From positions 1 through 56,332 of the forward strand of contig DASYZR010000066.1 of NCBI GenBank assembly GCA_035945995.1: a stretch of DNA of 56,332 bases, given 5' to 3'. Below, piece after piece: positions 2,259 through 30,147 of the stretch. The DNA is from a bacterium (GTDB lineage Bacteria > Sysuimicrobiota > Sysuimicrobiia > Sysuimicrobiales > Segetimicrobiaceae). The position numbers and the translations under genes were made by a program. Each line of letters opens with the position of its first letter. Position 1 is the first letter of the stretch. The notes beneath the pieces are model-generated. The model did no database searches, was not told the origin of the DNA, and saw only the letters and a program-made list of their open reading frames with translations.

Positions 2259-2288
2259 CGATCCCGGGCGGTCCCCTGCCCGGGATCG
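2259..2288 (-). terminator. Hairpin terminator at the end of the hcr/bzd-type operon
   Basis: An 11-bp perfect stem (CGATCCCGGGC at 2259-2269 pairing with GCCCGGGATCG at 2278-2288) has an 8-base loop and lies directly after the stop of the iron-sulfur subunit gene. It marks the likely 3' end of the long minus-strand transcript. No clear T-run follows, as is common in high-GC genomes. Confidence 0.6.
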
Positions 2289-2289
2289 A

Positions 2290-2814
2290 CTAGCCGTTCG
2301 TGTGCGCCGGCCCGAGCACCCCGGCCACCGCGGTGTGCTGCGGGTCATCCTGGGTCCTTGCCGCCGCCGCGAGGACGGCGTCCTCGATCTTGCGATAACC
2401 GGTGCAGCGGCAGAGGTTGCCCGAGATCGCCGCGCGGATGTCCTCGCGCGTCGGCGCCGGGTTGCCGTCCAATAGCGCCTTTGCCGAGAGCAGCCAGCCC
2501 GGCGTGCAGAAGCCGCACTGCACCGCGCCGTAGGCAACCGCGGCTTCCTGCAGCGGATGGAGCGTGCCGTCGCGTGCCAGACCCTCGACGGTCGTGACGT
2601 GCTTGTCGTCGCACCGGACCGCCAACGTCAGGCAGCTGAGGGCCGGTTCTCCGTCGATGAGCACGGTGCAGCACCCGCAGGCGCCGCCCTCACAGCCTTT
2701 CTTCGTGCCGGTCAGCGCCAGCCGGTCCCTCAGCACGTCCAGGAGCGTCCAATGCGGCCGCACGATCACGTCGTACGCTTCCTCATTGACGGTTAGGGCG
2801 ATTGTGATCTCCAT
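2290..2814 (-). CDS. hcrC: 4-hydroxybenzoyl-CoA reductase-type molybdoenzyme, [2Fe-2S] small subunit
   Basis: The 174-residue protein is a standard two-domain [2Fe-2S] subunit of the xanthine oxidase family. The plant-type cluster ligands are C41, C46, C49 and C61 (CEGGACGCC...C). The helical domain ligands are C100, C103, C135 and C137 (CGFC and CRC). It passes electrons between the molybdenum centre and the FAD/Fe-S subunit. The ATG at 2814 is chosen because it begins the usual beta-strand of the family; a longer frame upstream overlaps the neighbouring gene and has no domain content. It is the last gene of the operon, 11 bases after the FAD subunit gene. The substrate assignment rests on the neighbouring subunit and context. 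Confidence 0.85.
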   Translation of the reverse strand: MEITIALTVNEEAYDVIVRPHWTLLDVLRDRLALTGTKKGCEGGACGCCTVLIDGEPALSCLTLAVRCDDKHVTTVEGLARDGTLHPLQEAAVAYGAVQCGFCTPGWLLSAKALLDGNPAPTREDIRAAISGNLCRCTGYRKIEDAVLAAAARTQDDPQHTAVAGVLGPAHTNG

Positions 2815-2825
2815 GCCGCACCTCG

Positions 2826-3821
2826 TCAGTGTGCCGCGGCGTCGCGCGCCTGCCGCAGCGCCGACTCCGCGTAGACGTTCACCATGTCCCGGCGATACCG
2901 GACCGGGATGCCGCAGACGTTGTTGACCGCATGGGCCCGCTTGCGGGCCACGGCGGCCAGTTCCCGGATCGACTCGTCGGTGAGCAGTTTCCCCTGGAGC
3001 CGGCCCGCTTCGTCGACCATCACCGGAGCCCGGTCGACGCCTGTCAGGGCGAGCGCAGCCTCCCGGCAAATCGCGCCGCCGGTCTCCAGGGTCACGTGTG
3101 CCGCCACCCCGAGCAGCGGATAATCGAGCGTCTCCCGCTGCCGCAACTTGAGGTACGCGCCGCCGGAGCGAGGCGCGGTGTTCGGGATCCGGATCTCGGT
3201 GATGATCTGTCCGGGATGGAGCGTGTGGGGGCGCTGCCCGTCCCCGGAAAAGAGAGCACGCAGCGGTAGGGTCTTCTCCCCGTCGGGATCCGCGATCACC
3301 AGAGTCGCGCGGAGCACCAGCAACGCGGGCGCGAGGTCACCCGCGTAAGTGGCCCAGCACCGTGCGCTGCCGGCGACCACGTGGCAGACGTCGCCGTCGA
3401 GCTTCAGGCACGGCTCCAGTGATTGCCGCGCGCCGGTCGCCCGGTGGAGGTACATGCAGCAGGTGTTCTGGCACAAATTGCCCCCGAGCGTGGCCATCGC
3501 CTGCAGCTGGACGCTGCCGGCGGCGCGGGCGGCCTGCGCCAGTACCGCGAATTTCTCTCTGACCAGCGGATGAGCGGCGAGATGGCGGAGGGACACCAAC
3601 GCCCCGATCCGCAGCCCCCGATCAACGGCGTAACTGATCCGGTCGAGCGGGAGCGCGCCGAGATCCACGAGCAGGGCGGCGTGGTCTTGCCGGTTCCGGA
3701 GCGCCGTGAGGAGCTCGGTCCCGCCGGCGATGGCGCGCGCCCCGCCGTCACCCGCCGCGAGCGCCCGGCACGCATCCCGCACCGATCGGGGCGCCGTGTA
3801 CTCGAACTTAGGGAGCTTCAT
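2826..3821 (-). CDS. hcrB: 4-hydroxybenzoyl-CoA reductase-type FAD and [4Fe-4S] subunit
   Basis: This 331-residue FAD_binding_5/CO_deh_flav protein has an FAD-binding AIAGGTELL motif near residue 32 and a TLGGNLCQNT motif near residue 111. Most relatives such as CoxM lack any cluster here. This one carries an insertion rich in cysteine (C117, C121, C122, C138, C146, C155), and the 122/138/146/155 spacing matches the extra [4Fe-4S] site known from 4-hydroxybenzoyl-CoA reductase beta subunits. In that enzyme the cluster helps feed low-potential ferredoxin electrons to the molybdenum site for reductive dehydroxylation. Its start overlaps the large-subunit stop by 14 bases, so the three subunits are co-translated. 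Confidence 0.88.
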   Translation of the reverse strand: MKLPKFEYTAPRSVRDACRALAAGDGGARAIAGGTELLTALRNRQDHAALLVDLGALPLDRISYAVDRGLRIGALVSLRHLAAHPLVREKFAVLAQAARAAGSVQLQAMATLGGNLCQNTCCMYLHRATGARQSLEPCLKLDGDVCHVVAGSARCWATYAGDLAPALLVLRATLVIADPDGEKTLPLRALFSGDGQRPHTLHPGQIITEIRIPNTAPRSGGAYLKLRQRETLDYPLLGVAAHVTLETGGAICREAALALTGVDRAPVMVDEAGRLQGKLLTDESIRELAAVARKRAHAVNNVCGIPVRYRRDMVNVYAESALRQARDAAAH

Positions 3822-6126
3822 GGCGGCCCTCCTCGCCCACCCTTCTCAAGGCCGCCAGGATCTTGTCCGGTGTGATGGGCAGGTCCTTGATCCGCACGCC
3901 GACCGCGTCGAAGATCGCATTGGCGATGGCCGGCGGAACAGGAACGTTGGTGGTCTCTCCCAGTCCCTTGGCGCCGTACGGGCCCCAGGGATGCGGATGC
4001 TCAACAAGAATCGGGACCACCTCGGGGACGTCCGGCGCCGAGAGGTGCTTGTAGGCGAGGAACGACGGATTCATGACCTCGCCGTCCTGAAAGATCACCT
4101 CCTCCGCCAGGGCAAAGCCGAGCCCCATCGCGGCCCCTCCCTGGATCTGCCCTTCGCAGTTCATCGGGTGGATGGCCTTGCCGGTGTCGTACGCGCCCCA
4201 GATCTTCAGGACGGTGACTTCGCCCGTCGTCGTGTTCACGTCCACCTCGGCGCCGTTCGCGCCGAGGAGCCAGTAGACCATGTACCGGGAGTAGTATTCC
4301 GCCGACGGTTTGGGCATCGAGGGGAAATAGTAGCCTCGTCCGAGTACGGTCCCGCTGGGTCCGTAGTGCCGGCTCAGCACCTGGGCGATGGGCAGGACGC
4401 TTCCAGAATCCCGCGTCACGAAGACGTTCCCGTTCTTGATCCCGAGGTCGCCCGGGCCCGCGCCGAAGAGCGGCGCCGCCAGCGCGAGGAGCTGCGTCCT
4501 GGCGTCCGCGGCGGCCATCTTGACCGCGTTGCCCATGTGAAAGGTGGACCGGCTGGACGTCGTCGAGGCGTCGAACGGCGTAAACGCCGTGTCCGGCGCG
4601 TCCTTTTTCACACTCTCCAACGGCACGCCGAGCTCCTCGGCGGCGATCTGCCGCAAGACCGTCTCCGAGCCCTGGCCCACCTCCGTCGTGCTGCTGATGA
4701 CGTCGACGGTTCCGTCTTCGTTGACCTGGACGTAGGCCGCCGACCCGAATGGCGTCTTGACGGCCCGCTCCATGCACGCGATGCCCCGGCCCCGATTCCC
4801 GCCGAGCGGCCTCCCCCACTCCATGCGCCCGGCAACGGCGCGCAGACATTCCGTGAGGCCCTGAGAGACGTTCTCCTGGCCGGTGATGTGCTCGTCGCCC
4901 TCTTCGTAGACCTGCTTCAGTCTGATCTCCAGCGGGTCCAGCCCCAACTTGCCCGCGATGATGTCCATCTGCGACTCATAGGCCCACGCGGCCTGCGGCC
5001 CGCCATACCCGCGCATCGCGCCCGCCACGGTCTTGTTGGTGTAGACACAATACGCGTCGACCTTGACGTGGGGGATCTTGTAGGGGCCGGCGGCCGAGAC
5101 GCCGGCGAAGGCGGCCACCGTCGGCCCCTTCTCGGCGTAGGCGCCGGTATCGAGGTACAGTTCCACCTGACGCGCGACAATCGTGCCGTCTTTCTTCACC
5201 CCGGTTCGCATCCGGGTCATGGAGGGATGCCGCCCGAGCGCGCAGCAGAATTCCTCTTCCCGCGTGTACACGATCCGAATCGGCCGGTTCCGGAGCTTCC
5301 ACGCGAGCGCGATGGCCGGGGCCTCCGCCTTGAGCCCGCCCTTGCCGCCAAAGTTGCCGCCGATGGCGGGGGCCGTGATCACCCGGACGTCTTTGAGCGG
5401 AACGTTGAGGGCGTGGGCGATCTCCTTGCGGCAGCGGTAGGGCGAGTCGTTATGGAGCCACAGGGTCACGGCGTTGTCGTTGCTGATCCGGCAAATGGCA
5501 ATGTGCGGCTCGATGCTGCAGTGCTGTTGCATGGGCGTCGTGAAAGTATCCTCGAAAATCTCGTCCGCTTCCGCCATCCCCTGCTCCACGTTGCCCCGGA
5601 AGAGCTGGAAATGGTTGCAGATGTTGCTCCCCTTGATCGGCGTGATCCCACGTTCGCGGCGGTACGTGTCCAGCGCCTCGTGCACCAGGACCGCGTCCGG
5701 CTTGACGGCCTCGCTGAGATCGAGGACCGCCGGCAGGGGATCGTAGTCGACCGCGATCAGCGCCAGCGCTTCCTCCGCGGTCTCCTCATCGACGGCGGCG
5801 ACCGCCGCGACCGCCTCTCCCTGGTATCGAACCTTCTCCCTGGCCAGGAACGGCTCGTCCCAGATGGATTCCCCGTGGACGAACGGGAAGTCCGCGCCGG
5901 TGATCACGGTGCGGACGCCGGGCAGCTTCTTGGCCCTGGAGGTGTCGATATTGAGGAGGCGGGCGTGCGAGTGCCGGCTGCGGAGCACCTTTCCGTAGAG
6001 CATACCGGTGAACCGGAGATCTTCGAGATAGAGGGCGGCTCCCGTCACCTTGTCTCTCACATCCGTGCGCGGGTACGATTTCCCGACGACCGCGTAGGTA
6101 TCGATCCCTTCGACCGGGGATGTCAC
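3808..6126 (-). CDS. hcrA: 4-hydroxybenzoyl-CoA reductase-type molybdopterin large subunit
   Basis: The 772-residue xanthine-oxidase-family catalytic subunit binds the molybdopterin cytosine dinucleotide cofactor. Landmarks are GGNFGGKGG near the middle, AMRGYGGPQ, a GQGSETVLRQIAAEELG cofactor loop, and the conserved catalytic glutamate in GLGET (E724). The CO dehydrogenase signature AYRCSFR is absent. The length fits the family alpha subunit. With its HcrB-like partner the likely reaction is reductive removal of the para-hydroxyl from 4-hydroxybenzoyl-CoA, giving benzoyl-CoA. The GTG start at 6126 is preferred because it follows a strong GGAGGGAGGGGAG sequence and overlaps the hemerythrin stop as GTGA. 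The true substrate could be another hydroxyaromatic acyl-CoA. Confidence 0.85.
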   Translation of the reverse strand: MTSPVEGIDTYAVVGKSYPRTDVRDKVTGAALYLEDLRFTGMLYGKVLRSRHSHARLLNIDTSRAKKLPGVRTVITGADFPFVHGESIWDEPFLAREKVRYQGEAVAAVAAVDEETAEEALALIAVDYDPLPAVLDLSEAVKPDAVLVHEALDTYRRERGITPIKGSNICNHFQLFRGNVEQGMAEADEIFEDTFTTPMQQHCSIEPHIAICRISNDNAVTLWLHNDSPYRCRKEIAHALNVPLKDVRVITAPAIGGNFGGKGGLKAEAPAIALAWKLRNRPIRIVYTREEEFCCALGRHPSMTRMRTGVKKDGTIVARQVELYLDTGAYAEKGPTVAAFAGVSAAGPYKIPHVKVDAYCVYTNKTVAGAMRGYGGPQAAWAYESQMDIIAGKLGLDPLEIRLKQVYEEGDEHITGQENVSQGLTECLRAVAGRMEWGRPLGGNRGRGIACMERAVKTPFGSAAYVQVNEDGTVDVISSTTEVGQGSETVLRQIAAEELGVPLESVKKDAPDTAFTPFDASTTSSRSTFHMGNAVKMAAADARTQLLALAAPLFGAGPGDLGIKNGNVFVTRDSGSVLPIAQVLSRHYGPSGTVLGRGYYFPSMPKPSAEYYSRYMVYWLLGANGAEVDVNTTTGEVTVLKIWGAYDTGKAIHPMNCEGQIQGGAAMGLGFALAEEVIFQDGEVMNPSFLAYKHLSAPDVPEVVPILVEHPHPWGPYGAKGLGETTNVPVPPAIANAIFDAVGVRIKDLPITPDKILAALRRVGEEGRHEAP

Positions 6127-6692
6127 GGGCGCTCCCCTCCCTCCACCGCCGCACAAAGCCCCTCGGCGAGCCCGTGCGCACCGGCCCCGAGCGCGGCGTC
6201 CATGTCCGCAAAGCACTGCCCCGTCCCGGCCTCGTCGTCGTCGCCCATGACGGCGTCGCCGAGACGGAAAAGCACCTGGGACTCTTTCTCGATGTGGGTC
6301 CGCAGCAGATCGACGTAGTCGCGGCAGGCCCCGAGCACATCGTCGAGAGCCGCGCGGCCGTCTTCGTGACGGACCAGCGTGTCCTCGATGACTCCCACAA
6401 GCCGGCGCCCCTCCTCATGCTCCCGCAGCATGACCTGGATCGGCCCGCCCTCGGCGGGGACGCCGCGCTTCACGAGGCACGGAAAGAAACACCGCTCTTC
6501 CTTCCCATGGTGGCATTGGTCGACGAACGACCGGCTGAACGTCACCAGCTGCTTGAGGAACGTGACGGGTACGACACGTGTGCGCTCCGCGTCGGCCACG
6601 ACGCGGTCCAGCGCCGCGAGCACCTCCTCGATGACCCGGTGCTCCGCCGCCAGTTGCTGTGTCGCGCGCACGACCGCCGCTCCCCCGCCCAT
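6123..6692 (-). CDS. Hemerythrin HHE-domain protein
   Basis: The 189-residue protein is a four-helix hemerythrin-like domain with iron-ligand motifs in the expected order: AAEHRVIEE near residue 17, CHHGKEE near 60, LREHEEG near 88 and HIEKE near 133. Such proteins bind a di-iron centre and sense or carry oxygen or nitric oxide. It is translationally coupled on both sides (ATGA overlap with the SDR gene upstream, GTGA overlap with the large molybdoenzyme subunit downstream), so it is part of the aromatic operon. A protective or sensing role for the very oxygen-sensitive reductases is a reasonable inference, not something the sequence proves. Confidence 0.82.
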   Translation of the reverse strand: MGGGAAVVRATQQLAAEHRVIEEVLAALDRVVADAERTRVVPVTFLKQLVTFSRSFVDQCHHGKEERCFFPCLVKRGVPAEGGPIQVMLREHEEGRRLVGVIEDTLVRHEDGRAALDDVLGACRDYVDLLRTHIEKESQVLFRLGDAVMGDDDEAGTGQCFADMDAALGAGAHGLAEGLCAAVEGGERP

Positions 6693-7435
6693 CAGATCAT
6701 GGTCAGGCCGCCGCCGACGCTGAGGGTCTGGCCGGTGATGAACGACGCGCCGTCCGATGCGAGGAAGACGACGGCGTCCGCCACCTCCTCCGGCCGGGCC
6801 AAGCGGCCGAGCGGCGTTGCCTTGACGATCGAGGAGATGATCTTCTCGTTGCCCGCGGCGATCATGCCCTGCAGCAGGGGGGTGTCGGTGAGGCCGGGGG
6901 CGACGACGTTGACGCGGATTCCGTCGCGGGCCGCCTCGCGCGCGATCGCCTTGGTGAACGCGATGATGGCGCCCTTGGTGCCGGAATAGACCGCTTCCCC
7001 GGATGAGCCCGCGCGCCCCGCTTCGGACGCGACGTTCACGATCACCCCGCTCCGTCGCGCGATCATGTGGGGCAACACAGCATGGCACGTCGCGAGGATA
7101 CCCCGGTAGTTGATGGCGATCACCCGGTCCCAGAAATCCTCGGTCGTATCCACGAACCGTGCGATTCGGTCCCATCCGGCCGCGTTGACCAGTACGTCGA
7201 TGCGGCCCCACGCGGCCACCACCTGATCGACCCCGGCCACGACGCTCCGGCGGTCGGTCACGTCTATCGCCACCGGCATGCCCCCGGGGGTCGCGGCGGC
7301 AACCTCCTCGGCCCCCGGGCCGTTGATGTCGGCGACGGCGACACGATCGCCCGCCGCGGCAAACGCCGCGCAGATCGCCTTGCCGATGCCGCTTGCTCCG
7401 CCGGTGACCAGGATCGTGCGATTGTCAGTGGCCAT
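6692..7435 (-). CDS. SDR-family alicyclic hydroxyacyl-CoA dehydrogenase, BadH-like
   Basis: This 247-residue short-chain dehydrogenase has the cofactor motif GGASGIGKA (residues 12-20), NAAG, and the catalytic Ser/Tyr/Lys triad with VYSGTKGA. Several stretches (NAAGWD, RAGSSGEAVY, the GQTLSVGGGLTM end) closely resemble BadH, the 2-hydroxycyclohexanecarboxyl-CoA dehydrogenase of Rhodopseudomonas. Here it sits between the ring-opening hydrolase and the hemerythrin. No zinc-type Had/BzdX dehydrogenase is visible in the window, so this enzyme is the best candidate to oxidise the 6-hydroxy intermediate before ring opening. That role is inferred from position. Confidence 0.8.
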   Translation of the reverse strand: MATDNRTILVTGGASGIGKAICAAFAAAGDRVAVADINGPGAEEVAAATPGGMPVAIDVTDRRSVVAGVDQVVAAWGRIDVLVNAAGWDRIARFVDTTEDFWDRVIAINYRGILATCHAVLPHMIARRSGVIVNVASEAGRAGSSGEAVYSGTKGAIIAFTKAIAREAARDGIRVNVVAPGLTDTPLLQGMIAAGNEKIISSIVKATPLGRLARPEEVADAVVFLASDGASFITGQTLSVGGGLTMI

Positions 7436-7453: not shown

Positions 7454-8431
7454 CTACAACTGCTGCCCGCAATGGCCGCAAAACGCCATACCCTCCGGCA
7501 GGCCCCGCGCCCCGCACGCCGGACACGCGCGCACCGGAGGTCCCCACACCGACTCCGACGATCCGCCGTCGCGGGCGCGGGCGCGCAGCGCCCGGTAGTC
7601 GACGGGCCGCTTGTCGACGAACGCCGTCATGCCCTCCCACGGCTCGCGAGAAGCGAAATGCAGGCTCAACCACTCCCGGGCGTGGCCGGCCGTCATGTGC
7701 CAGGCGAGGTCCTTCCAGAAGTTCACCTGCTGCTTGGTGTACCTGAGACACTCCGGGAACTTGTCGATGAGGTTCTGACAGAGGGTGTCGACCGCGGCGT
7801 CGAGTTCGCCCCGCGGCACCACGCGGTTTACGAGCCCCCAGTCCAGCGCCTGCTGCGCCGTGATGGGCTCACACGTGAGGAGCATTTCGCGGGCCCGCCG
7901 GTCCCCGATCATAATGGGCAGCCACTGCGTCGCGCCGCCCGCTGCCACGCTGCCGACCTTCGTCCCCACCTGGCGGATCGTGACGTCGTCCGCGGCCACG
8001 GCGAGGTCGCAGTCCATGTTCCATTCGTTCCCGCCGCCGGCCACGATCCCGTTGAGCCGCGCGATCGCGGGCTTGCCGATGTTCCGCAGCGCGTCGTGTG
8101 CCTCGATGAAGAGCGTCATGTACTTCCAGTAGTCGCGCGGCCGCCGGGTGTACTCGCCGGCATACTCCGCGACATCCCCGCCGGTGCAGAACGCCCGGTC
8201 GCCCGCCCCGGTGAGGACCAGCACGGCGACGCCGTCGTCGTAGGCGGCGTCGCGAAACGCATCGCGCATCTCGGCGAGGGTGTGCGCGCGGTAGGCGTTG
8301 TAGACCTTCGGCCGGTTGATCGTGACCCGCGCCACCCAGTCGCGCTTTTCGTAGAGAATGTCCTGAAAATGAAACTCCTCGGCCGGTCGCGCGTGCAGCG
8401 GCGCTGGAGCCACCTCAGACATGATGCTCAT
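7454..8431 (-). CDS. Ring-opening crotonase (Oah/BamA/BadI-like) with C-terminal zinc ribbon
   Basis: The 325-residue protein has a crotonase fold at residues 25-275. E136 in GGGNEWNMDCDL matches the first catalytic glutamate of hydratases. The second glutamate position is glycine (G156 in QVGTKVGS), the pattern seen in MenB, BadI and BamA, which make or break C-C bonds in rings. Matches to BamA/Oah-type sequences (FCTGGDVAEYA, GSVAAGGATQWLPIMIG, FPECL) point to 6-oxocyclohex-1-ene-1-carbonyl-CoA hydrolase, which opens the ring to a hydroxypimeloyl-CoA. Unusually, the C-terminus (303-325) is a four-cysteine zinc ribbon (C303, C306, C318, C321). The ATG at 8431 follows GGAAGGGGG. Confidence 0.8.
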   Translation of the reverse strand: MSIMSEVAPAPLHARPAEEFHFQDILYEKRDWVARVTINRPKVYNAYRAHTLAEMRDAFRDAAYDDGVAVLVLTGAGDRAFCTGGDVAEYAGEYTRRPRDYWKYMTLFIEAHDALRNIGKPAIARLNGIVAGGGNEWNMDCDLAVAADDVTIRQVGTKVGSVAAGGATQWLPIMIGDRRAREMLLTCEPITAQQALDWGLVNRVVPRGELDAAVDTLCQNLIDKFPECLRYTKQQVNFWKDLAWHMTAGHAREWLSLHFASREPWEGMTAFVDKRPVDYRALRARARDGGSSESVWGPPVRACPACGARGLPEGMAFCGHCGQQL

Positions 8432-8464
8432 CGTCGATCCCCCTTCCTCCACGCTCTCCGCCCC

Positions 8465-9292
8465 TCAGGCGGTTCGTTGCTGGGCCAATTTGCGGCTCCG
8501 CTCGCGGCCCAGCAGCGCGGCTCCCATGGCGCCCGCGTACACGCCCAGGTCGTCGGAGGCGACGTGGAATGTGACGCCGAGCGCGTCCTCGATCGCCCGG
8601 CGGAGCAGGGGCACCCGGGTGAGGCCGCCCGTGAGCGCGTACTCCGGCTCCGGCCGGACCCGCTTGAACACCTGGCCCGCGCGTTCCGCGAGCGCCATCA
8701 CGGCGCCCGCGCACACATCTTCCGCGCTGCGCCCGGCGGTCAGGTGGTTGATGACTTCGGACTCGGCGAAGACGGCGCACACGCTGGAAATCGTCACGGG
8801 CGCCGTCGCGGCCCCGGCGAGCGGCGCGATGTCCGAAGCGCCGTACCCGAGATAGCGCATCGTTTTCTCTAAGAACGCGCCGCTGCCGGCCGCGCATTTG
8901 TCGTTCAGGCGAAACGCCTTGACCCGTCCGCGCTCCCCGAGGCGGATCGCCTTCACCGTCTGGCCGCCGATGTCGAGCACAGTGCGGACGGACGGAAGGA
9001 GCCGGGAGACCGCGTGCGCGTGGCACGTCAGCTCGGTGATGGCGAGATCCCGAAACGGCACCATGTACCGGCCGTAGCCCGTGGCGGCCACGTACCCGAC
9101 CTCGTCCCGGGAGATCCCCGCCGATTCGAGCGCCGCCGCGAGACCTCGCTCGGCGGCCCGCGCGAAGTCATAGCCGCTCGGGATCGCCGTGAGGCCGGCG
9201 AGCCGGCCGTCGTCGTCCCCTGTGGGGAACAGGCCGGCGAGCACCACCTTGGTGTACGCCGAGCCGACGTCGATGCCGGCGGTGAGGGTCAT
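8465..9292 (-). CDS. bzdQ: Benzoyl-CoA reductase ATPase subunit, BzdQ/BcrD-like
   Basis: This 275-residue BadF/BadG/BcrA/BcrD-family ATPase has the acetate/sugar kinase-Hsp70 fold motifs: phosphate 1 loop GIDVGSAYTK (residues 6-15), ATGYGR (70-75), DIGGQTVKAI (107-116) and a late GG motif in ALTGGL. The cysteines that hold the [4Fe-4S] cluster between two ATPase subunits are C133 (NDKCAAGSG) and C172 (SSVCAVFAES). ATP hydrolysis here lowers the potential of electrons passed to the ring-reducing subunits. It is distinct from its neighbour and overlaps it by 4 bases, so the pair would form a heterodimer as in Azoarcus-type enzymes. Confidence 0.87.
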   Translation of the reverse strand: MTLTAGIDVGSAYTKVVLAGLFPTGDDDGRLAGLTAIPSGYDFARAAERGLAAALESAGISRDEVGYVAATGYGRYMVPFRDLAITELTCHAHAVSRLLPSVRTVLDIGGQTVKAIRLGERGRVKAFRLNDKCAAGSGAFLEKTMRYLGYGASDIAPLAGAATAPVTISSVCAVFAESEVINHLTAGRSAEDVCAGAVMALAERAGQVFKRVRPEPEYALTGGLTRVPLLRRAIEDALGVTFHVASDDLGVYAGAMGAALLGRERSRKLAQQRTA

Positions 9293-10221
9293 GACGGCCC
9301 GCCTCCCCCGGCGCCGGTCGCGTCGGCCGTCCCGCCCCGCGCAGCCGGGGCCGTCCCGCCCCGCGAAGACGGGGTCGCCCGCACGGGCTCGGCAGAACGC
9401 GTCGGCGAGACAGGCTGAGCGAATTCGGCAGATGCGGCTTCCGCGCCCACCAGCATCCGGTCGAGAGCGTACAGCGCCGCCCCGATGGCGCCGCAGTAGT
9501 GCGACTCCTCGCTCACGTTCAGGGGCACGCCCGTCAGATCCGCGAGCAGCTTCACCATCGCGACGTTCCGGGCCACCCCGCCCGTGAACGTGAGCTCGGG
9601 CTCGATCCCCACGCGCCGCAGCAGCGATAGACTGCGGGAGGCGATCGCCGTGTGCACGCCCATCAGGACGTCCTCGGTCTTGCGGCCCCGGGCGAGCCAT
9701 CCCAAGATCTCCGATTCCGCGAAGACGGTGCACGTCGTGGTCATCGTCACCGCGTTTCTGGCGCGCAGCGCGAGCGGACCGAGCTCGCCGAGCGGGATCT
9801 CGAGCGCCTGCGAGGCCGCGCCCAGAAACCGCCCGGTCCCGGCCGAGCACTTGTCGTTCATGCTGAAGTCCAGCACCTGTCCGGTCTCGCTCACACGGAT
9901 CGCCTTGGTGTCCTGCCCGCCGATGTCGAGGACGCTGCGGGTCCCCGGGAACAGGTAGACCGCGCCGCGCGCGTGACAGGAGATCTCCGTGACCTGGGCG
10001 TGTCCGAACTCCACCCGGAAGCGCCCGTACCCGGTACCGATGACGCACGCCACGTCCGCTTCGGCGGCCCCGGCCGCCGCGAGCGCCTGGCGGAACGCGG
10101 TCCCGGCCGCGTCGGTCAACCGGACGCCGGTGTCGACGATCGCGCGGCCGAGAAGGCGCGTGTCGTCCATGACCACGGCCTTGGTTTGGGTGGATCCCAC
10201 GTCCACGCCGCCGACCAGCAT
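9289..10221 (-). CDS. bzdP: Benzoyl-CoA reductase ATPase subunit, BzdP/BcrA-like
   Basis: The second ATPase subunit (310 residues) has GVDVGSTQTK (5-14), GTGYGR (62-67), DIGGQDTKAI (99-108), cluster ligands C125 (NDKCSAGTG) and C164 (TTTCTVFAES), and a late FTGG motif. The kinase fold ends near residue 255. The last 50 or so residues are a Pro/Ala/Gly-rich tail containing an 8-residue repeat also found in the preceding gene, an unusual extension for this family. The ATG at 10221 has GAGGTG six bases upstream. A GTG at 10230 would overlap the upstream stop as GTGA and is an equally possible start. Confidence 0.87.
   Translation of the reverse strand: MLVGGVDVGSTQTKAVVMDDTRLLGRAIVDTGVRLTDAAGTAFRQALAAAGAAEADVACVIGTGYGRFRVEFGHAQVTEISCHARGAVYLFPGTRSVLDIGGQDTKAIRVSETGQVLDFSMNDKCSAGTGRFLGAASQALEIPLGELGPLALRARNAVTMTTTCTVFAESEILGWLARGRKTEDVLMGVHTAIASRSLSLLRRVGIEPELTFTGGVARNVAMVKLLADLTGVPLNVSEESHYCGAIGAALYALDRMLVGAEAASAEFAQPVSPTRSAEPVRATPSSRGGTAPAARGGTADATGAGGGGPS
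9330..9377 (-). repeat. Two tandem 24-bp repeats, each with a GC hairpin
   Basis: Units at 9330-9353 and 9354-9377 share most bases. Each contains CCCCG-6 nt-CGGGG, a 5-bp stem (9336-9351 and 9360-9375). In the minus-strand gene they encode the repeated PAARGGTA-type tail of the BzdP-like protein. The same unit occurs twice more at 10243-10290. Confidence 0.75.
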
Positions 10222-11585: not shown

Positions 11586-11626
11586 CGTGGGGCCTCCCGT
11601 CAACACGCGTCGGTCGGCGTCCGTGC

Positions 11627-13681: not shown

Positions 13682-13829
13682 CGAGCCGGCGACTTCCAGA
13701 CCGTCGGTGACCGCCAGCACGGCGGCGGGACCCCGGGGCGCGGAGCGTTCGGTACCGATCACGGTCGCAAGACCTACCTGCTTGCCCCCGGCAAGCCAGC
13801 CCCTCAATGCGGTCCAGGACGTCCTTCAT
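13682..13829 (-). pseudogene. Frameshifted, truncated XdhC/CoxI-like remnant
   Basis: An ATG at 13829 overlaps the upstream PrpF-like stop as ATGA and begins MKDVLDR, a typical XdhC start. One base out of phase, the reading continues as RGWLAGGKQVGLATVIGT and SAPRGPAAVLAVTDG...VAGS, the conserved N-terminus of XdhC/CoxI proteins. After AGS the similarity stops near 13682 and the expected SGGCVE motif is missing. XdhC-family proteins mature and insert the sulfurated molybdenum cofactor into xanthine-dehydrogenase-type enzymes, so its decay beside a molybdoenzyme operon is notable. A sequencing error could explain the frameshift but not the truncation. Confidence 0.6.
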
Positions 13830-19554: not shown

Positions 19555-20257
19555 CCCGCCTCCTCGCGCCGCCGAGCGCGCCGACCGCGTAGTCGCCGAA
19601 TTCGTCGGCGATCTGCTCGGCGCGATACTGGCCGGCCGGCTGATACCAGCGCACGACCCAGTTGACGATCCCGAGCACGGCGAACCCGGCCAGCCGCACG
19701 TCGGTCGGCGCGAACTCGCCGGCGTATACGCCGTCCGCGACGATGCGGCGGAACAGGGCCTCGTAGCGATCCCGCGTGGCCTGATGGGCGGCCCGGTACT
19801 CGGGCGCGAGCCAGCGTCCTTCCTCGAGAAAACATGCGACATTGTCACGGTCGCGCGCCAGCGTGAGAATGTGCAGACCCACCGCCTCACGAAGCCGCTC
19901 GGCCGCCGGCGCGTCGCCGGCGGCGATGCGTTCGAGCTCCGGCAGCGAGTCTTCCAGCGCGTGCTGGAGGATCTCAAAGAGCAGCCGCTGCTTGCCGGTG
20001 ATGTAGTGGTACAACGATCCCTTCTTCAGGCCCACCGCGTCCGCGATGCTCTGGACCGTCGTGCGTTCGAACCCCTGCCGGCGGAACAACGCGGCGGCCG
20101 CCTTGAGGATCTGGCCGCGCATCCCCTCGTCCCGCGCCCGTGGACGTTCGGCCGCGGCGACCGGCCCCGCCGGCCTCGCCCGAAGCGCGGGCACGGCGTC
20201 CGTGTTCGCCGCCGCTCCCGGCGGTGCGGAGGCACGATGCCGGAGGGTCTCCGTCAT
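19541..20257 (-). CDS. TetR/AcrR-family transcriptional regulator
   Basis: The 238-residue regulator has a TetR helix-turn-helix at about residues 48-95 (ILKAAAALFRRQGFERTTVQSIADAVGLKKGSLYHYI split around the turn) after an unusual 45-residue Ala/Pro/Arg-rich N-terminus. The C-terminal ligand domain resembles acyl-CoA-responsive members (VGLHILTLARDRDNVACFLEE). It sits inside the operon, overlapping korC (ATGA) and the CoA-transferase gene, so it is probably an autoregulated sensor of an acyl-CoA intermediate. The start could be shorter, at a methionine near residue 46. Confidence 0.82.
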   Translation of the reverse strand: MTETLRHRASAPPGAAANTDAVPALRARPAGPVAAAERPRARDEGMRGQILKAAAALFRRQGFERTTVQSIADAVGLKKGSLYHYITGKQRLLFEILQHALEDSLPELERIAAGDAPAAERLREAVGLHILTLARDRDNVACFLEEGRWLAPEYRAAHQATRDRYEALFRRIVADGVYAGEFAPTDVRLAGFAVLGIVNWVVRWYQPAGQYRAEQIADEFGDYAVGALGGARRRDGRA

Positions 20258-20907
20258 GACCCGCCCGGGCTCCGCCGCATCGCCGGCAGGAGGCCGCGAA
20301 GCGGCCGGCCGGAGGTCCCGCGCCAGACGGGGAGGTCCTTGGGCCTGCGGCGCGGGCCAAAGATGCGCAGAGAGGGCGCGCCGGCCGCAAGTTTCCGTCC
20401 CGCATCGAACGCCGCCAGATTGAGCGTGCGCGAGAACTCCGGCACGCGGCGCGCGGCGACCTCCGCGAGGATCTCCGGCGGGACGGCCGCGGTAAGCTCG
20501 CACACTAGACCCAGCATCACCATGTTCGCGCCCAGTGCCGATCCCGTGAGGGCGCGGGCCGTCTCGATGATCGGCAGCGCGTAACCGGCGGCCGCATCGT
20601 CCGCGGCAACTGTGACCCGCCCCGCGTCCACGATCGCCATCCCGGAGGACACGAGCGCGCGCCGCGATCGGTCCCATGCCTCCTGCGTGAGCGCGGCCAG
20701 CACGTCGAGCTGGCGGGGCACTGGAAACGCCACGCGGCGTTCGCTGATGATCACGTCGGACCGGCTCGCGCCTCCCCGCGACTCAGGCCCGTGGGCCTGG
20801 GTGCAGACGACCCGGCGGCCCGCCGCCACGGCGGCTTCGGCCAGGATCAGCCCGGCGAGCGCGATGCCCTGTCCCCCTGCGCCGCCGAGGCGAATCGCGA
20901 GCGTCAT
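20254..20907 (-). CDS. korC: 2-oxoacid:ferredoxin oxidoreductase, gamma subunit (KorC-like)
   Basis: The 217-residue protein is a gamma-type subunit: IRLGGAGGQGIALAG at the start, HGPESRGGASRSDVIIS near residue 40, and GANMVMLGL near residue 130. With the alpha and beta subunits just upstream it would oxidise a 2-oxoacid (2-oxoglutarate most likely) with CoA and pass electrons to ferredoxin. In Thauera this activity regenerates the reduced ferredoxin used by benzoyl-CoA reductase. Coupled by 4-base overlaps on both sides. Confidence 0.85.
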   Translation of the reverse strand: MTLAIRLGGAGGQGIALAGLILAEAAVAAGRRVVCTQAHGPESRGGASRSDVIISERRVAFPVPRQLDVLAALTQEAWDRSRRALVSSGMAIVDAGRVTVAADDAAAGYALPIIETARALTGSALGANMVMLGLVCELTAAVPPEILAEVAARRVPEFSRTLNLAAFDAGRKLAAGAPSLRIFGPRRRPKDLPVWRGTSGRPLRGLLPAMRRSPGGS

Positions 20908-21746
20908 GATCGGGCCCCCACCGCGGGCACGAGCGCGCGCACCCGCGCACCGAACTCCGGCCGTTCGACCTCGACGAGCACGCCGGTCTCGACGGGCCCC
21001 GCCGCCACCGCCGGGCGGCTCTCGTGCAGGAGCGTGGGCTCGCCGAGCGCGAGCGGGGCGTCGATCGCCGCCGCCGCGCGCTTCTGGCCGTACAGCATCG
21101 CCGTGGGGCTGCCCAGCCGGTTGTAGCGGCCGTACACCTCCGGGCAGTCGCTGATCACCTCGACGAAGGCGAACCCCGCGTGGCGCAGCCCGCGCGCGAA
21201 GAGGTCCTCGAGCACCGCCGGCTCGTAGGCGATGCCCCGCGCCACGAACGTCGCGCCGGCCGCGGCCATCAGGCGGCACGCGTCGAACGGCGGCTCGATG
21301 TTCCCGTACGGGGACGTGGTCGTCGTGCCCGCGGTCGGCGTCGTCGGTGCAAGCTGCCCCCCGGTCATCCCGTATACCTGGTTGTTGAAGAGCAGACACG
21401 TCAGGTCGATGTTCCGCCGCGCGGCGTGGATGAGGTGGTTGCCGCCGATCGCCAACCCGTCGCCGTCGCCGGTGATCACGATCACGTGGAGATCCGGGCG
21501 CGCGAGCTTCAGGCCCGTGGCAAACGCCGGCGCCCGCCCATGGGTGGTGTGCAGCGTGCAGAAGTCCATGCTGCCCGGCAGCCGGCTGCTGCACCCGATG
21601 CCGGCCACGACGGCCACCGAGTCCTGCGCCAGCCCGAGGCGGTCGATGGCTCGGAGGAGCGCGCCGGCGACGATCCCGTGGCTGCAGCCCGGACAGAGAA
21701 TGTGCGGCATCTGCTCCGGACGCAAGAAGCGGCGGATGTCGCTCAT
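20904..21746 (-). CDS. korB: 2-oxoacid:ferredoxin oxidoreductase, beta (TPP) subunit (KorB-like)
   Basis: The 280-residue thiamine-diphosphate-binding subunit has CPGCSHG (residues 18-24), GIGCSSR and the ITGDGDGLAIGGNH TPP/Mg motif, plus NNQVYGMTGGQLAPTTP. Cysteines in the first two motifs, with one further downstream, hold a [4Fe-4S] cluster in the family. The size and motifs fit KorB. It begins with TGATG overlap after korA. Substrate preference cannot be read with certainty; 2-oxoglutarate or a branched/aryl oxoacid remain options. Confidence 0.87.
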   Translation of the reverse strand: MSDIRRFLRPEQMPHILCPGCSHGIVAGALLRAIDRLGLAQDSVAVVAGIGCSSRLPGSMDFCTLHTTHGRAPAFATGLKLARPDLHVIVITGDGDGLAIGGNHLIHAARRNIDLTCLLFNNQVYGMTGGQLAPTTPTAGTTTTSPYGNIEPPFDACRLMAAAGATFVARGIAYEPAVLEDLFARGLRHAGFAFVEVISDCPEVYGRYNRLGSPTAMLYGQKRAAAAIDAPLALGEPTLLHESRPAVAAGPVETGVLVEVERPEFGARVRALVPAVGARS

Positions 21747-22897
21747 CACACGCGCCCCCCGACCGGACAGCGCGTCTCCAGGCACGCGAGGATTTGCTCG
21801 GGATCGATCAGCTCCCCATCGGCGCGGCAGCACGGAACGACGGGCACCCGGCCGCCCACGGCGCGCTCGACCTCCCGGCTGATCTGGCCGAGGTTCATCT
21901 CCGCGACCACAAGCGCCTTGACCGATGCGGCGACGCTGCGCACGATGCGGTCGGGAAACGGCCAAAGCACGAGAGGGCGCAGCAGACCCGCGCGGAGCCC
22001 GAGCCGCCGCGCCTCGCCGACGGCCTCTTCCGCCGCGCGCGCGGCGCTTCCGCAGGCGACGACCGCGATCTCGGCATCGTCGAGGTGGAGGCTCCGGACC
22101 GGCACCACCACGTCCTCGAAGGTTGCGATCTTGTCCAGCCGGCGGCGCTGGTGCGCCGCGATCGTTCCGGGGTCCTGGGTGGGATAGCCGCGATCGTCGT
22201 GCGCCAGGCCGGTGACGTGGAACCGGTACCCGCTCCCGAAGTCCGCCATCGGCGCGATACCGTCCGCGTCCGGTGCGTACGGCCGGTACACCGGGGGCGC
22301 CACCGCCGGACGCCGCCGGCCCGGCACGCCGCCGCGCGGCGCCTCAAGCAGCACCGCCTCCTCGCGCATGTGCGCGATCACCTCGTCGTAGAGCACGACG
22401 ACCGGTGTCCGGAAGCGCTCCGCGAGCGCAAACGCCGCGACGGTCAGCTCGTACACCTCGGGGACCGACGCCGGGGTCAGGACGAGGCTCGGGACGTCGC
22501 CGTGCGTCCCCCAGCGCGCCTGCATGACGTCCCCTTGGGACGGCGAGGTCGGAAGCCCGGTGCTCGGCCCGCCGCGCATGACGTTCACGATCACGCACGG
22601 CACCTCGGCCATGGCCGCGAAGCCGATGTGCTCCTGCATGAGGGAGAACCCGGGCCCGCTCGTGGCCGTCATCGCGCGCAGGCCGCCGAGCGATGCCCCG
22701 ATCACCGCGGCGAGGGAGCCGATCTCGTCCTCCATTTGCACGAACACGCCGCCCACGGCGGGGAGCCGCCGGGCCATTCCCTCGGCGATCTCCGACGAGG
22801 GCGTGATGGGATACCCGGCATAGAAGCGGCAGCCGGCCGCGACCGCGCCGGCCACGCACGCGGCGTTCCCCTGTACAAGTTGCGGCTGATCGCTCAC
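21746..22897 (-). CDS. korA: 2-oxoacid:ferredoxin oxidoreductase, alpha subunit (KorA-like)
   Basis: The 383-residue protein shows the alpha-subunit marks: GNAACVAGAVAAGCRFYAGYPITPSSE at residues 9-35 (the YPITP motif), MEDEIGS and TSGPGFSLM, and GPSTGLPT. The gamma domain is separate (korC), as in korABC. The GTG at 22897 overlaps the preceding stop as GTGA. No separate korD ferredoxin gene is present; the ferredoxin fused to the upstream IorB-like protein may serve the complex. Confidence 0.87.
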   Translation of the reverse strand: MSDQPQLVQGNAACVAGAVAAGCRFYAGYPITPSSEIAEGMARRLPAVGGVFVQMEDEIGSLAAVIGASLGGLRAMTATSGPGFSLMQEHIGFAAMAEVPCVIVNVMRGGPSTGLPTSPSQGDVMQARWGTHGDVPSLVLTPASVPEVYELTVAAFALAERFRTPVVVLYDEVIAHMREEAVLLEAPRGGVPGRRRPAVAPPVYRPYAPDADGIAPMADFGSGYRFHVTGLAHDDRGYPTQDPGTIAAHQRRRLDKIATFEDVVVPVRSLHLDDAEIAVVACGSAARAAEEAVGEARRLGLRAGLLRPLVLWPFPDRIVRSVAASVKALVVAEMNLGQISREVERAVGGRVPVVPCCRADGELIDPEQILACLETRCPVGGRV

Positions 22898-23748
22898 GAG
22901 AGTCCTCCCGCCGGGCGCACGGCGATGGCGAAATCGGGACAGAACCACTCGCAGAGCCGGCAGCCCGTGCACGCAGCCATGTCGACGACCTCGACGACGG
23001 CGCGATCGTTGAGGCGAAGGCAGGCTTCCGGGCAGATACGCACGCAGATGTCGCACCCTTTGCACCACGCGGCGGTGATCTCGGGCGCGCCGGCACGGCG
23101 CTCCTCGGCCGGCCTCACGGGGCGTCTTGGCTCATGGCGTAGGCCCGCGGCCGGCACCGGCTGGAGGACGCCGCCTTCCCGAAATGCGCGCAGGTTCATC
23201 TCGACGGTGCGCGCGGGCACGTGCCGGGCCAGCGTCGCCTCCCACACGTCCCGGGGAAAATCCAAGGTCTCGGCGAGCACGCCGAGCAACACCGTGTTCG
23301 CCACATGCGCGGAGCCGAGACGCCGCGCCACCTCCAGGGCGTCGACGGTCTCTACCGGCCCGCCATGATCGCCGAGGGCCGCACCGTCGAACGAGGGATA
23401 GGCCCGCGTCCATCCACGATGATCAAGGTGGGCGGCCGGCGGCACGATCTGCGCCGTGTTCACGATCAAGACCCCGCCGGGGCGCAGGTAGGCGCGCCAC
23501 CGCAGTCCCTCGGCCCATTCGAGCGCTACCACCGCATCGGCCTCGCCGGCCCCGATCAGGGGGCTGTGGACCGTGGGGCCGTAGCGGACGTGACTGAAGA
23601 CGATGCCGCCGCGCTTCGACATGCCGTGGACCTCGCTCTTCTTGACGTCGAAACCGGCGGCGAGCGCGACGTCCGCGAGGATGTTGCCGGCCAGCACCAC
23701 TCCCTGACCGCCCACGCCCACGATGAGCACGCTACGCGTTGCGGGCAT
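22894..23748 (-). CDS. Fusion of IorB-like subunit and 2x[4Fe-4S] ferredoxin
   Basis: Residues 1-190 are an indolepyruvate:ferredoxin oxidoreductase beta-type domain (VLIVGVGGQGVVLAGN, EVHGMSKRGGIVFSHVR). After a linker, residues 228-275 form a KorD-like ferredoxin with two cluster motifs (CKGCDICVRICP and CTGCRLCEWFCP). IorB proteins normally lack such a domain. The gene lies between iorA upstream, which it overlaps by 17 bases, and korA downstream. The fusion may tie the Ior enzyme to the Kor electron flow or make a shared electron exit. Confidence 0.83.
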   Translation of the reverse strand: MPATRSVLIVGVGGQGVVLAGNILADVALAAGFDVKKSEVHGMSKRGGIVFSHVRYGPTVHSPLIGAGEADAVVALEWAEGLRWRAYLRPGGVLIVNTAQIVPPAAHLDHRGWTRAYPSFDGAALGDHGGPVETVDALEVARRLGSAHVANTVLLGVLAETLDFPRDVWEATLARHVPARTVEMNLRAFREGGVLQPVPAAGLRHEPRRPVRPAEERRAGAPEITAAWCKGCDICVRICPEACLRLNDRAVVEVVDMAACTGCRLCEWFCPDFAIAVRPAGGLS

Positions 23749-25600
23749 CGGCCGCTCCCCCCCGCGCGGCGACGCCTCCGCGGCCGCCGGGCGGCGCGGA
23801 CTCCCCTCGAAGCAGCACAATGGCGCCGGTGGGGCACAGTTGCGGGCAGATCGCGCATCCGGAGCACAACGCGGGATCGATCGTGACCTTGAACCGTCTC
23901 TCGTACCGCGCGGGCGTCCAGCCCAGCGCCGGACACCCGATCGCGATGCACGCCTGACAGGCCGTGCAGGCCTCGGCGACCACCCCGAACGGCGGCCGGC
24001 GGATCTTGGCCGGGGCTTCCACGCAGGGACGGTTCGTGATGACGACCGAGACCCCGGGATGCGCGACGGCGGCCTCGAGCGTCCGATGGGTAGCGCCGAC
24101 GTCGTACGGGTCCACGACCTCGATCCACTCCACGCCCAGCGCGCGGCACAGCGCGACGAGGTCGGTGCGCGGCGCGCCGTCGCCTCGGATTGTCCGGCCG
24201 GTGGCCGGGTGTGGCTGTCCGCCGGTCATCGCGGTGGTGCCGTTGTCGAGGATCAGCACGGTAATCGGCGTGCGATTGTAAACGGCGTCCAGCAGCGCGG
24301 GAATGCCGGCATGGAGGAACGTCGAATCGCCCAAGGTGGCCACGATGGGGCCGGTGCGCGCGCCGGAACGCGCAAGCCCGATCGCCATCCCGATGCTCGA
24401 CCCCATGGCCAGCGTGGTATCAATCGCCCCGAGCGGAGGCAGCGCGGCCAACGTGTAGCAGCCGATGTCGCCGGCGACGACCGCCCCCATCTCTCGCAGC
24501 GCCATGTACGGCACCGTGTGAGGACAGCCGGGGCACAGGACCGGAGGTCGGGGAGACGCCGGCGCCGCCGGCACCTCCCGCGCCGGGGGCGCCGCCAGTC
24601 CCCCGGCCCGGGCGAAGCCGTCACGCACGAGGTCCGGCGTGAGCTCGCCTGTCCTCGGGAAGTACGCCTTGCCTTCCACGGAGAGGCCCGCGGCCCGCAG
24701 GGCGTCTTCGACCACCGGCTCGAGCTCTTCGACGACGAACAGCCGGTCGACCGACGCGGCAAAGTCCCGAATGCGGCCGAGGGGCAGTGGGAACGAGAAC
24801 CCCAGCTGAAGGACGCTGGCTTCGGGCAGCACCTCGCGCACGTACTGGGCGGCGACGCCGCTTGTGATCACGCCGAGGCGTCGATCGCGCAGTTCCACGC
24901 GGTTGAGGGGCGAGGTCTCGGCCTCGGCGGCGAGACGGGACAGCCGGTCAAGCAGGACGGGATGACGGCGGCGGGCATGCGCCGGCAGCATGACGTACTT
25001 GGCGGGGTCGCGGCGGAATCCCCGGGCCTCGGGGCACCGCCGTTCGCCGATCTCGACGACTCCGCTCCCGTGGCTGACGCGCGTCGTGGTCCGCACGAGC
25101 ACCGGAGTATCGTAGGCCTCGCTCAGATCGAACGCCGACGCGGTGAACGCCTTGGCCTCCGCCGAATCCGCCGGCTCCAGCAGCGGGATCCCGGCGAACC
25201 GGGCGTAAAGGCGATTGTCCTGCTCGTTTTGAGAACTATGCATCCCGGGGTCGTCGGCCGAGACGACAACCAAGCCCGCCCCCACGCCCGTGTACGCCGC
25301 CGAGAGGAACGTGTCCGCGGCCACGTTCAGCCCGACGTGTTTCATGGCGGCCAGCGCGCGAACGCCGCCGAGGGAGGCCCCCAGCGCCACGTCCAGGGCG
25401 ACTTTCTCGTTGGGGGACCACTCGACGTACACGCCCTCCCACTGCGCCAGTGTTTCGAGGATCTCGGTGCTGGGCGTGCCGGGATATCCGGCCGCCACCA
25501 TCACGCCGGCTTCGTAGGCGCCCCGCGCCACCGCCTGGTTGCCGAGGAGCACCCCGCGCGAGACGGGGGCCCGGTCTTCCGGCTTAGGCTGGAGGCTCAC
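23732..25600 (-). CDS. iorA: Indolepyruvate:ferredoxin oxidoreductase alpha subunit
   Basis: The 622-residue protein has the fused pyrimidine and TPP domains of IorA: LLGNQAVARGAYEAGVMVAAGYPGTPSTE at residues 17-45, CPGCPHT near 350, GDIGCYTLAALPPLG, GDSTFLHAG, and two C-terminal cluster motifs (CTACQACIAIGCP and CSGCAICPQLCP). It converts aryl pyruvates to arylacetyl-CoA with ferredoxin reduction. A ligase of the phenylacetate-CoA family is in the same operon, so aromatic amino acids or arylacetates could feed or drain this step. The GTG at 25600 overlaps the synthase stop. The C-terminal 25 residues are Gly/Ala/Arg-rich and lack family support. Confidence 0.88.
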   Translation of the reverse strand: MSLQPKPEDRAPVSRGVLLGNQAVARGAYEAGVMVAAGYPGTPSTEILETLAQWEGVYVEWSPNEKVALDVALGASLGGVRALAAMKHVGLNVAADTFLSAAYTGVGAGLVVVSADDPGMHSSQNEQDNRLYARFAGIPLLEPADSAEAKAFTASAFDLSEAYDTPVLVRTTTRVSHGSGVVEIGERRCPEARGFRRDPAKYVMLPAHARRRHPVLLDRLSRLAAEAETSPLNRVELRDRRLGVITSGVAAQYVREVLPEASVLQLGFSFPLPLGRIRDFAASVDRLFVVEELEPVVEDALRAAGLSVEGKAYFPRTGELTPDLVRDGFARAGGLAAPPAREVPAAPASPRPPVLCPGCPHTVPYMALREMGAVVAGDIGCYTLAALPPLGAIDTTLAMGSSIGMAIGLARSGARTGPIVATLGDSTFLHAGIPALLDAVYNRTPITVLILDNGTTAMTGGQPHPATGRTIRGDGAPRTDLVALCRALGVEWIEVVDPYDVGATHRTLEAAVAHPGVSVVITNRPCVEAPAKIRRPPFGVVAEACTACQACIAIGCPALGWTPARYERRFKVTIDPALCSGCAICPQLCPTGAIVLLRGESAPPGGRGGVAARGGAADARNA

Positions 25601-26853
25601 GCGACCGGTGCCGTCCGGTATGACGACGCCCCTGACGTCACCAGCGCGAGGATCTCCTCGTCGCAGAGGACATGCGTGCTCGCTTTGGCACAGTCGAGCA
25701 CGCGACGTACGAAGTCCGGATGCGGCGGGACGCGGTGCTGTTCGCACCAGTACACCACGTTGGCCTGTCCGCTCATGGGCCCGATGGTGAGCCGCTGTTC
25801 CCGGCCGACCTCCTCGGCGGGAACGCTGCTGTAGACTCGGTCCGCGAGCCAGCGGTCGTCCCGCCGCAACGCCTTGAGGATCGCGGCGGCGTGCACGCCG
25901 CTGCTCGTCTCGAACGCATCCTTGCCGACGACCGGATAGTTGGGCAGCATCGGCAGCCCCACGGCGTCGGCGACGGCCCGGCAGTACGCGGGGAGCGCCC
26001 GCAGATCGATCTCGACCCAGCCCATCCAGTCGAGCAGCCGCAGATTGACGAGCAATTGCTCCATGCTGGTGTTGCCGACCCGCTCGCCGATCCCCAGCGC
26101 GCACGCGTGCAACCGGTCCGCGCCGGCCTCTGCGGCCGCGAGCGCATTGATCACGTCCAGCCCACGATCGCGGTGGCCGTGCCAGTCGATGGCGATCGCA
26201 TCGCCGACGACGCGACGCATGAACCGGACCAGCCGCCAGGCCCCCCAGGGCGTCGCGTGCCCGACCGTATCGGCCACACAGATCCGACCCGCCCCCGCCG
26301 CCACCGCAGCGGTGTAGAGACGCCGCAGGTCATCCGGCCGGGCCCGCGTGGTGTCCTCGGTGACGAACATCACCTCGAGCCCCAGGCGGCGCGCGTGCGT
26401 CACCGCGGCGTCGGCGGTACGAAGCAGAAACTCGACGTCCCAGCCCTCGACGTACTGGCGGATGGGGCTGCTCCCGAGGAAGAGCGCGGCTTCGATCGCG
26501 ACACCGCTCCGCTGCTGGGCCTCCGCGATCGGGACGATGTCGGCCTCGGTGGTCCGGCCGGCGCAATTCGGCCGGAGATGCAGCCGGTGGCCGCGGATTT
26601 CGCGGGCCAGCGCCACCACGTCGTCGAGCGCCTGCGGGCCGGCGCCGGGATAGCCGAGATTCACGGCGGAGATTCCGAGATCGTCCATGAGGTGCAGGAT
26701 CACGCGCTTCTGCTCCGCCGACGGCTGCCGCACGGAGGGACTCTGCAACCCGTCGCGGAGCGTCTCGTCGTTGATGTCGAGCGGTCCGCGTGGCCGGCGC
26801 GGGCGTTGCCCCGCCGTGTTCCAGTCGTAGATCAGATCCACGGGCTTGATCAT
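25597..26853 (-). CDS. DRE-TIM metallolyase, 2-isopropylmalate/homocitrate synthase-like
   Basis: This 418-residue TIM-barrel enzyme has the metal and catalytic motif DETLRDGLQSP (residues 29-39), DWHGHRDRG with the HxH metal ligands, and the GIGERVGNTS signature. It is shorter than LeuA and appears to lack the C-terminal regulatory domain. Family members join acetyl-CoA to a 2-oxoacid, or split 3-hydroxyacyl compounds. With leuC- and leuD-like genes in the same operon it looks like a chain-extension or branched-acid pathway, but the oxoacid is unknown. The start at 26853 has AGGAGGGG upstream. Confidence 0.78.
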   Translation of the reverse strand: MIKPVDLIYDWNTAGQRPRRPRGPLDINDETLRDGLQSPSVRQPSAEQKRVILHLMDDLGISAVNLGYPGAGPQALDDVVALAREIRGHRLHLRPNCAGRTTEADIVPIAEAQQRSGVAIEAALFLGSSPIRQYVEGWDVEFLLRTADAAVTHARRLGLEVMFVTEDTTRARPDDLRRLYTAAVAAGAGRICVADTVGHATPWGAWRLVRFMRRVVGDAIAIDWHGHRDRGLDVINALAAAEAGADRLHACALGIGERVGNTSMEQLLVNLRLLDWMGWVEIDLRALPAYCRAVADAVGLPMLPNYPVVGKDAFETSSGVHAAAILKALRRDDRWLADRVYSSVPAEEVGREQRLTIGPMSGQANVVYWCEQHRVPPHPDFVRRVLDCAKASTHVLCDEEILALVTSGASSYRTAPVA

Positions 26854-29994: not shown

Positions 29995-30033
29995 CGGGGG
30001 CCCTCCCGATCGCGACGGCATGCCAACAGCCGC

Positions 30034-30049: not shown

Positions 30050-30083
30050 TTGATGTTCACTATGGGGCCGCACCCCGGCCAAG

Positions 30084-30107: not shown

Positions 30108-30147
30108 GGTGATGCAAACGCTCCCGGCCGCCCGACCGAGGGATGAA

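Follow-up and report, generated by a model that had tools for sequence, protein, structure and literature searches.

A xanthine oxidase family enzyme with a 4-hydroxybenzoyl-CoA-reductase-type FAD subunit and a molybdenum subunit of apparently different lineage beside benzoyl-CoA-reductase-like genes

Gene content of the locus

The whole stretch of DNA analysed, called the window below, has a length of 56,332 nt. Near one end it contains three genes for a molybdenum (Mo) enzyme next to a block of genes that resemble those for aromatic-ring reduction. The features needed here are:

2264..6172, minus strand: cassette interval missing from a genus mate (comparison of conserved flanks)
2290..2814, minus strand: subunit with two [2Fe-2S] clusters, 174 aa (Pfam Fer2 and Fer2_2)
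2826..3821, minus strand: FAD subunit, 331 aa (Pfam FAD_binding_5 and CO_deh_flav_C above cut-offs; top match 1rm6_B)
3348..3473, minus strand: Cys-rich insertion of the FAD subunit, residues 117-158 (alignment, residue counts)
3456-3458, 3408-3410, 3384-3386 and 3357-3359: codons of the putative ligands C122, C138, C146 and C155
3459-3461: codon of C121, an extra cysteine of the FAD subunit
3808..6126, minus strand: Mo-binding subunit of 772 aa, beginning with a GTG that overlaps the stop of the gene upstream (Pfam Mo-binding domains, motifs)
6123..6692, minus strand: hemerythrin-like protein, start approximate
6692..7435, minus strand: BadH-like short-chain dehydrogenase (TIGR03206, 272 bits, cut-off 431)
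7454..8452, minus strand: BadI-like crotonase with a Cys-pair tail at the C-terminus (TIGR03210, 206 bits, cut-off 468)
8465..10221, minus strand: two BcrA/BcrD-like ATPase subunits, about 8465-9289 and 9289-10221 (TIGR00241, above cut-off)
about 10227-11624, minus strand: BcrB-like (TIGR02260, 202 bits, below cut-off)
11627-12796, minus strand: BcrC-like (TIGR02263, 301 bits, below cut-off)
20254..26104, minus strand: 2-oxoacid:ferredoxin oxidoreductase subunits with Fer4 motifs

The genes for the hemerythrin-, BadH-, BadI- and BcrD/A/B/C-like proteins lie upstream of the Mo, FAD and Fe-S genes and have the same direction. The stop codon of the hemerythrin-like gene and the start codon of the Mo gene overlap in GTGA (6126-6123), 14 bp are common to the Mo and FAD genes, and only 11 bp separate the FAD gene from the Fe-S gene, indicating that the genes form one operon. 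The Bad/Bcr-like genes are assigned to ring reduction by resemblance, because every Bad/Bcr equivalog score is below its curated cut-off; the make-up of two ATPase and two HGD-D subunits supports this assignment. The gene content thus favours an operon built for the anaerobic breakdown of aromatic rings. Farther along are genes for a thiolase, a short-chain dehydrogenase, a crotonase, a CoA transferase, a PaaK-like CoA ligase, and the 2-oxoacid:ferredoxin oxidoreductases, which are possible sources of reduced ferredoxin.

Three further observations concern the neighbourhood. Genes for a homocitrate/isopropylmalate-synthase-like protein and for homoaconitase-like large and small subunits flank the PaaK-like ligase (25597-30117); their position beside the 2-oxoacid oxidoreductases suggests 2-oxoacid chain elongation next to aromatic degradation. 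Directly upstream of the Bcr-block LuxR/PAS gene, positions 13682-13798 match part of XdhC_CoxI (39 of its 68 positions) within a frame of 127 residues, possibly the remnant of a gene for Mo-cofactor maturation, and in the family member G005 an apparently XdhC-like frame, recognised by eye, follows the hemerythrin gene (L125:9077-10219). The cassette is flanked at 1005-2186 by a gene for a radical SAM/SPASM protein of the TIGR04053 family (above cut-off; 83% identity in the genus mate G002).

Cysteines and predicted fold of the FAD subunit

The enzyme has the three-subunit organisation of the xanthine oxidase family, i.e. Mo domains with the catalytic Glu, a FAD_binding_5/CO_deh_flav_C subunit, and a Fer2/Fer2_2 subunit. 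The FAD subunit, itself a family member, contains cysteines at positions 18, 117, 121, 122, 138, 146, 155, 252, and 303. Its closest solved relative is 1rm6_B (E 7e-53), the beta subunit (HcrB) of the 4-hydroxybenzoyl-CoA reductase (HBCR, HcrABC) of Thauera aromatica, with 38-40% identity. C122, C138, C146, and C155 align with 1rm6_B one-to-one and without gaps, at coinciding residue numbers, and are invariant in an alignment of 55 sequences, which together exclude chance. An additional [4Fe-4S] centre in the beta subunit of the Thauera enzyme is already named in the title of a paper by Unciuleac et al. (2004).

Cys-rich insertions are also present in the FAD subunits of the periplasmic aldehyde oxidoreductase PaoABC of E. 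coli (5g5g) and of a Methylobacillus aldehyde oxidase (5y6q), the second and third best matches both by sequence and by Foldseek. Both differ from the window in their cysteine spacing: in the alignment, the PaoB-type spacing is not found in the window insertion, which has that of HcrB.

The sequence-only reading had placed the four cysteines in an insertion binding an additional [4Fe-4S] cluster, and its positions and numbering were right. It had also called C117 and C121 unusual. This holds for C121: of 99 sequences with the full four-Cys set, 97 have Arg at position 121, and the only two with Cys are the window and one relative, L027. Position 117 is Cys in 83 of the 99, and C117 is therefore ordinary.

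Alignment and structure prediction against the Thauera enzyme had been proposed as a check. An AlphaFold2 model of the FAD subunit, built with the 55 sequences (pLDDT 94, pTM 0.93), matches 1rm6_B over 321 of its 323 residues (Z 44.5, rmsd 1.6 Å). Other folds score clearly lower, i.e. 5y6q_B (Z 37.0), CO dehydrogenase (about 36), and PaoB (33.8). At the level of this overall superposition there is no sign of a failure of the cysteines to cluster, which had been named in advance as the result that would speak against the idea. Judging from the model and the alignment, the four cysteines almost certainly hold an extra [4Fe-4S] cluster, and the site would be occupied in the native subunit.

The insertion and the direction of the reaction

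The beta subunit of the Thauera HBCR binds an additional [4Fe-4S] centre (PMC10223205). A four-cysteine [4Fe-4S] motif in the FAD subunit is likewise characteristic of PaoABC, an aldehyde-oxidising enzyme (PMC13404670). Conversely, the urolithin C dehydroxylase Ucdh of Enterocloster belongs to the xanthine oxidase family, has HBCR as its closest characterised relative, and catalyses a reductive dehydroxylation, but its description lists no centres other than FAD and two 2Fe-2S clusters and gives NADH as the donor (PMC12771579). The comparison with Ucdh is based on this description. The insertion alone is therefore no sign of reduction.

The insertion had been regarded as the strongest clue that the enzyme is a reductase rather than an oxidase, and the examples of PaoABC and Ucdh leave this argument unsupported. 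As had been stated, the insertion is absent from most FAD subunits of the superfamily, yet the scan of the genome collection yielded at least 580 confirmed stretches with the four-Cys motif in many phyla, and the genome of the window itself encodes a second four-Cys enzyme (contig C50, L006/L132). The [4Fe-4S] insertion marks a low-potential electron port and does not prove reduction. From the earlier proposal of a reductive, ferredoxin-driven enzyme the extra cluster thus survives, the deduction of reduction from the insertion does not, and a better case for that direction comes from the operon context. An insertion of this kind is easily taken as a mark of reductive chemistry; the data presented here part the electron port from the chemistry.

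Ancestry of the Mo subunit

HBCR is the top NCBIfam match for all three subunits, but the scores miss the equivalog cut-offs (TIGR03193, 184 of 258 bits; TIGR03194, 588 of 995 bits; TIGR03195, 248 of 405 bits). Among solved structures, HBCR is closest to the Mo subunit and the Desulfovibrio aldehyde oxidoreductase second. Naming the Mo subunit HBCR alpha by its best match was rejected: the insertion-free enzymes L168, L169, and L181 also have TIGR03194 as top match, with similar scores.

For a comparison of active sites we used five HBCRs, i.e. that of Thauera and, by close similarity, those of Magnetospirillum (L067) and Rhodospirillales (L057, L061, L081). They have FAE[VI]NH, ITILY326, RGHGTVD, and GAKEASE726G in common. 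The window has TPMQQH, TVAAF, RGYGGPQ, and GAKGLGE at these places, and L027 has a nearly identical set. Of the HBCR signature (V/I-N-H, Tyr326, RGHGTVD, E726), the window Mo subunit thus keeps the catalytic Glu, within GAKGLGET; relative to HcrA, Tyr326 is replaced by Phe, RGHGTVD by RGYGGPQ, and V by Q two residues before the His (H-2). Gln at H-2 occurs only in the window and L027 among the four-Cys enzymes.

The Mo tree pairs the window with L027 (100%) and nests both among enzymes whose FAD subunits, where found, are free of the insertion (SH-aLRT 99 and 97), whereas the other 40 four-Cys enzymes are found elsewhere. The starred branches place the Mo subunit outside the HBCR clade. After L027, its nearest relatives are the uncharacterised L134-L136 (44-47% identity to the window); for L134/L168 the FAD partner was found, and it is without the insertion. 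In an AU test with unrelated rows removed, joining the Mo subunits of the window and L027 to the four-Cys enzymes costs 31.7 log units (p 0.0137), which is moderate evidence because the group was named after the first tree had been seen. An earlier AU test (p 1e-81) was set aside, as its group was also broken by the insertion-free rows L175-L177.

The FAD subunits behave differently. In a tree calculated without the insertion columns, the window and L027 fall within the four-Cys clade with a support of 100/100, and this clade has a single origin. The most economical reading of the two trees, held with moderate confidence, is that the complex would be a mosaic of an HBCR-type FAD subunit and a Mo subunit from another lineage, so that the electron port and the part responsible for the chemistry appear to have different histories. 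The complex probably resembles HBCR at the electron port, but curated scores, active-site signature, and Mo phylogeny all speak against filing it as HBCR.

Distribution of the cassette

In G002, the flanks of the cassette are conserved with 80-88% DNA identity, and its place is taken by two other genes, one cupredoxin-like and one cytochrome b-like. G002 retains the ring-reduction block, showing that the pathway does not depend on the cassette in all members and that the whole cassette was acquired or lost in one piece. In base composition, the cassette is not clearly distinct from its flanks, so that there is no sign of a recent foreign origin.

The only close relative of the cassette is L027, from an Acidobacteria groundwater MAG (JACQGG010000259.1). 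The identities are 60% for the FAD, 72% for the Mo, and 63% for the Fe-S subunit, and gene order, Mo motifs, and C121 are shared. In contrast to the window, the L027 cassette, also uncharacterised, is on a contig without Bcr genes; its genome encodes BcrCBAD (48-61% identity) on another contig. The mosaic make-up looks to be common to the window and L027 only.

Proposed function and alternatives

We tentatively propose, with a probability of roughly 45%, that the enzyme is a ferredoxin-linked reductase of a hydroxyaryl-CoA, the donor and the substrate being suggested by the context. One-electron, low-potential electrons, most likely derived from ferredoxin, would enter at the C122/C138/C146/C155 cluster. 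By analogy with HBCR, they would pass from [4Fe-4S] via FAD and the two [2Fe-2S] clusters to Mo. The Mo site would most likely strip the hydroxyl group from a hydroxyarenecarboxyl-CoA, the ring of which would then be reduced by the benzoyl-CoA-reductase-like neighbour. This proposal draws on the alignment with HcrB and the 1.6 Å match of the model to 1rm6_B, on the start codon overlap of the Mo gene, whose operon includes BadH-, BadI-, and BcrDABC-like genes of the same direction, and on the ferredoxin-type 2-oxoacid oxidoreductases in the same window. The presence of BcrCBAD in the L027 genome and the recurrence of four-Cys enzymes beside Bcr-like genes, in relatives from the same order and in L072, also count for it. 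Against it count the Mo subunit, which is devoid of the HBCR signature and grouped with insertion-free enzymes, the scores of all three subunits far under the HBCR cut-offs, the HBCR best matches also of insertion-free Mo subunits, and the ring-reduction block of G002 without a cassette.

A serious rival, possible if not probable, is ferredoxin-linked oxidation: Mo would oxidise an aromatic aldehyde or hydroxylate a ring, feeding the CoA ligase and ring reduction, and the [4Fe-4S] cluster would pass electrons to a carrier such as ferredoxin. The motifs of the Mo subunit (IEP after QQH, RGYGGPQ, GAKGLGE) are hydroxylase-like and comparable to those of the Desulfovibrio aldehyde oxidoreductase, and the grouping with insertion-free enzymes, the nearby PaaK-like CoA ligase, and the oxidative PaoABC with its comparable cluster fit this explanation. 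However, no solved structure is closer to either large subunit than HBCR, the Mo gene is translationally coupled to ring-reduction-like genes, and no aldehyde-forming step was identified within the window.

A further reading, less likely than not, is a natural recombinant in which an HBCR-type [4Fe-4S]-FAD port serves an uncharacterised Mo subunit of the insertion-free lineage, its cassette edging a benzoyl-CoA-reductase-like operon, for a ferredoxin-driven reduction other than the dehydroxylation of 4-hydroxybenzoyl-CoA. If the separate histories are real, enzymes of the xanthine oxidase family can switch their electron partner by swapping FAD subunits, and the cassettes of the window and L027 are two named cases for asking which of the two, electron partner or Mo site, sets the direction.

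It is improbable that the complex is simply a diverged 4-hydroxybenzoyl-CoA reductase and that long branches have put its Mo subunit in the wrong part of the tree. The best NCBIfam matches of all three subunits, the exact HcrB spacing of the insertion, and the moderate AU result would agree with this; yet Tyr326, RGHGTVD, and V/I-N-H, kept in five HBCRs, are lost, starred branches keep the Mo subunit out of the four-Cys group, and all scores are far under the equivalog cut-offs. A relic insertion that binds no cluster, or a different one using C121, is suggested by the change from Arg to Cys beside ligand C122 and is very improbable, given that all four ligands are retained in the window and L027 and that the model keeps the HcrB geometry.

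Other four-cysteine enzymes

The residue corresponding to the catalytic E726 of HcrA is Gln in 54 of the 87 four-Cys enzymes scored as Glu or Gln at this position. This Gln (e.g. in GAKEVGQG) nearly always occurs together with GPKRGHG. Loci with Gln-type Mo subunits include L132 (G000:C50), L006, L008-L021, L040, and L047, among others. Replacement of this Glu in the xanthine dehydrogenase of R. capsulatus slows the reaction at least 10^7-fold (PMC9966888), so that the large Gln-type clade probably performs other chemistry. Gln-type four-Cys enzymes are encoded no more than about 7 kb away from BcrABCD-like genes in five relatives from the same order, i.e. L127, L128, and L129 (genomes G031, G019, and G015) and, by coordinates, G028 and G022, as well as in L072, a MAG labelled as a Nitrososphaerales archaeon. 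In the genome of the window, by contrast, the Mo enzyme of the Bcr operon is a different one, and the gene for the Gln-type four-Cys enzyme is on another contig.
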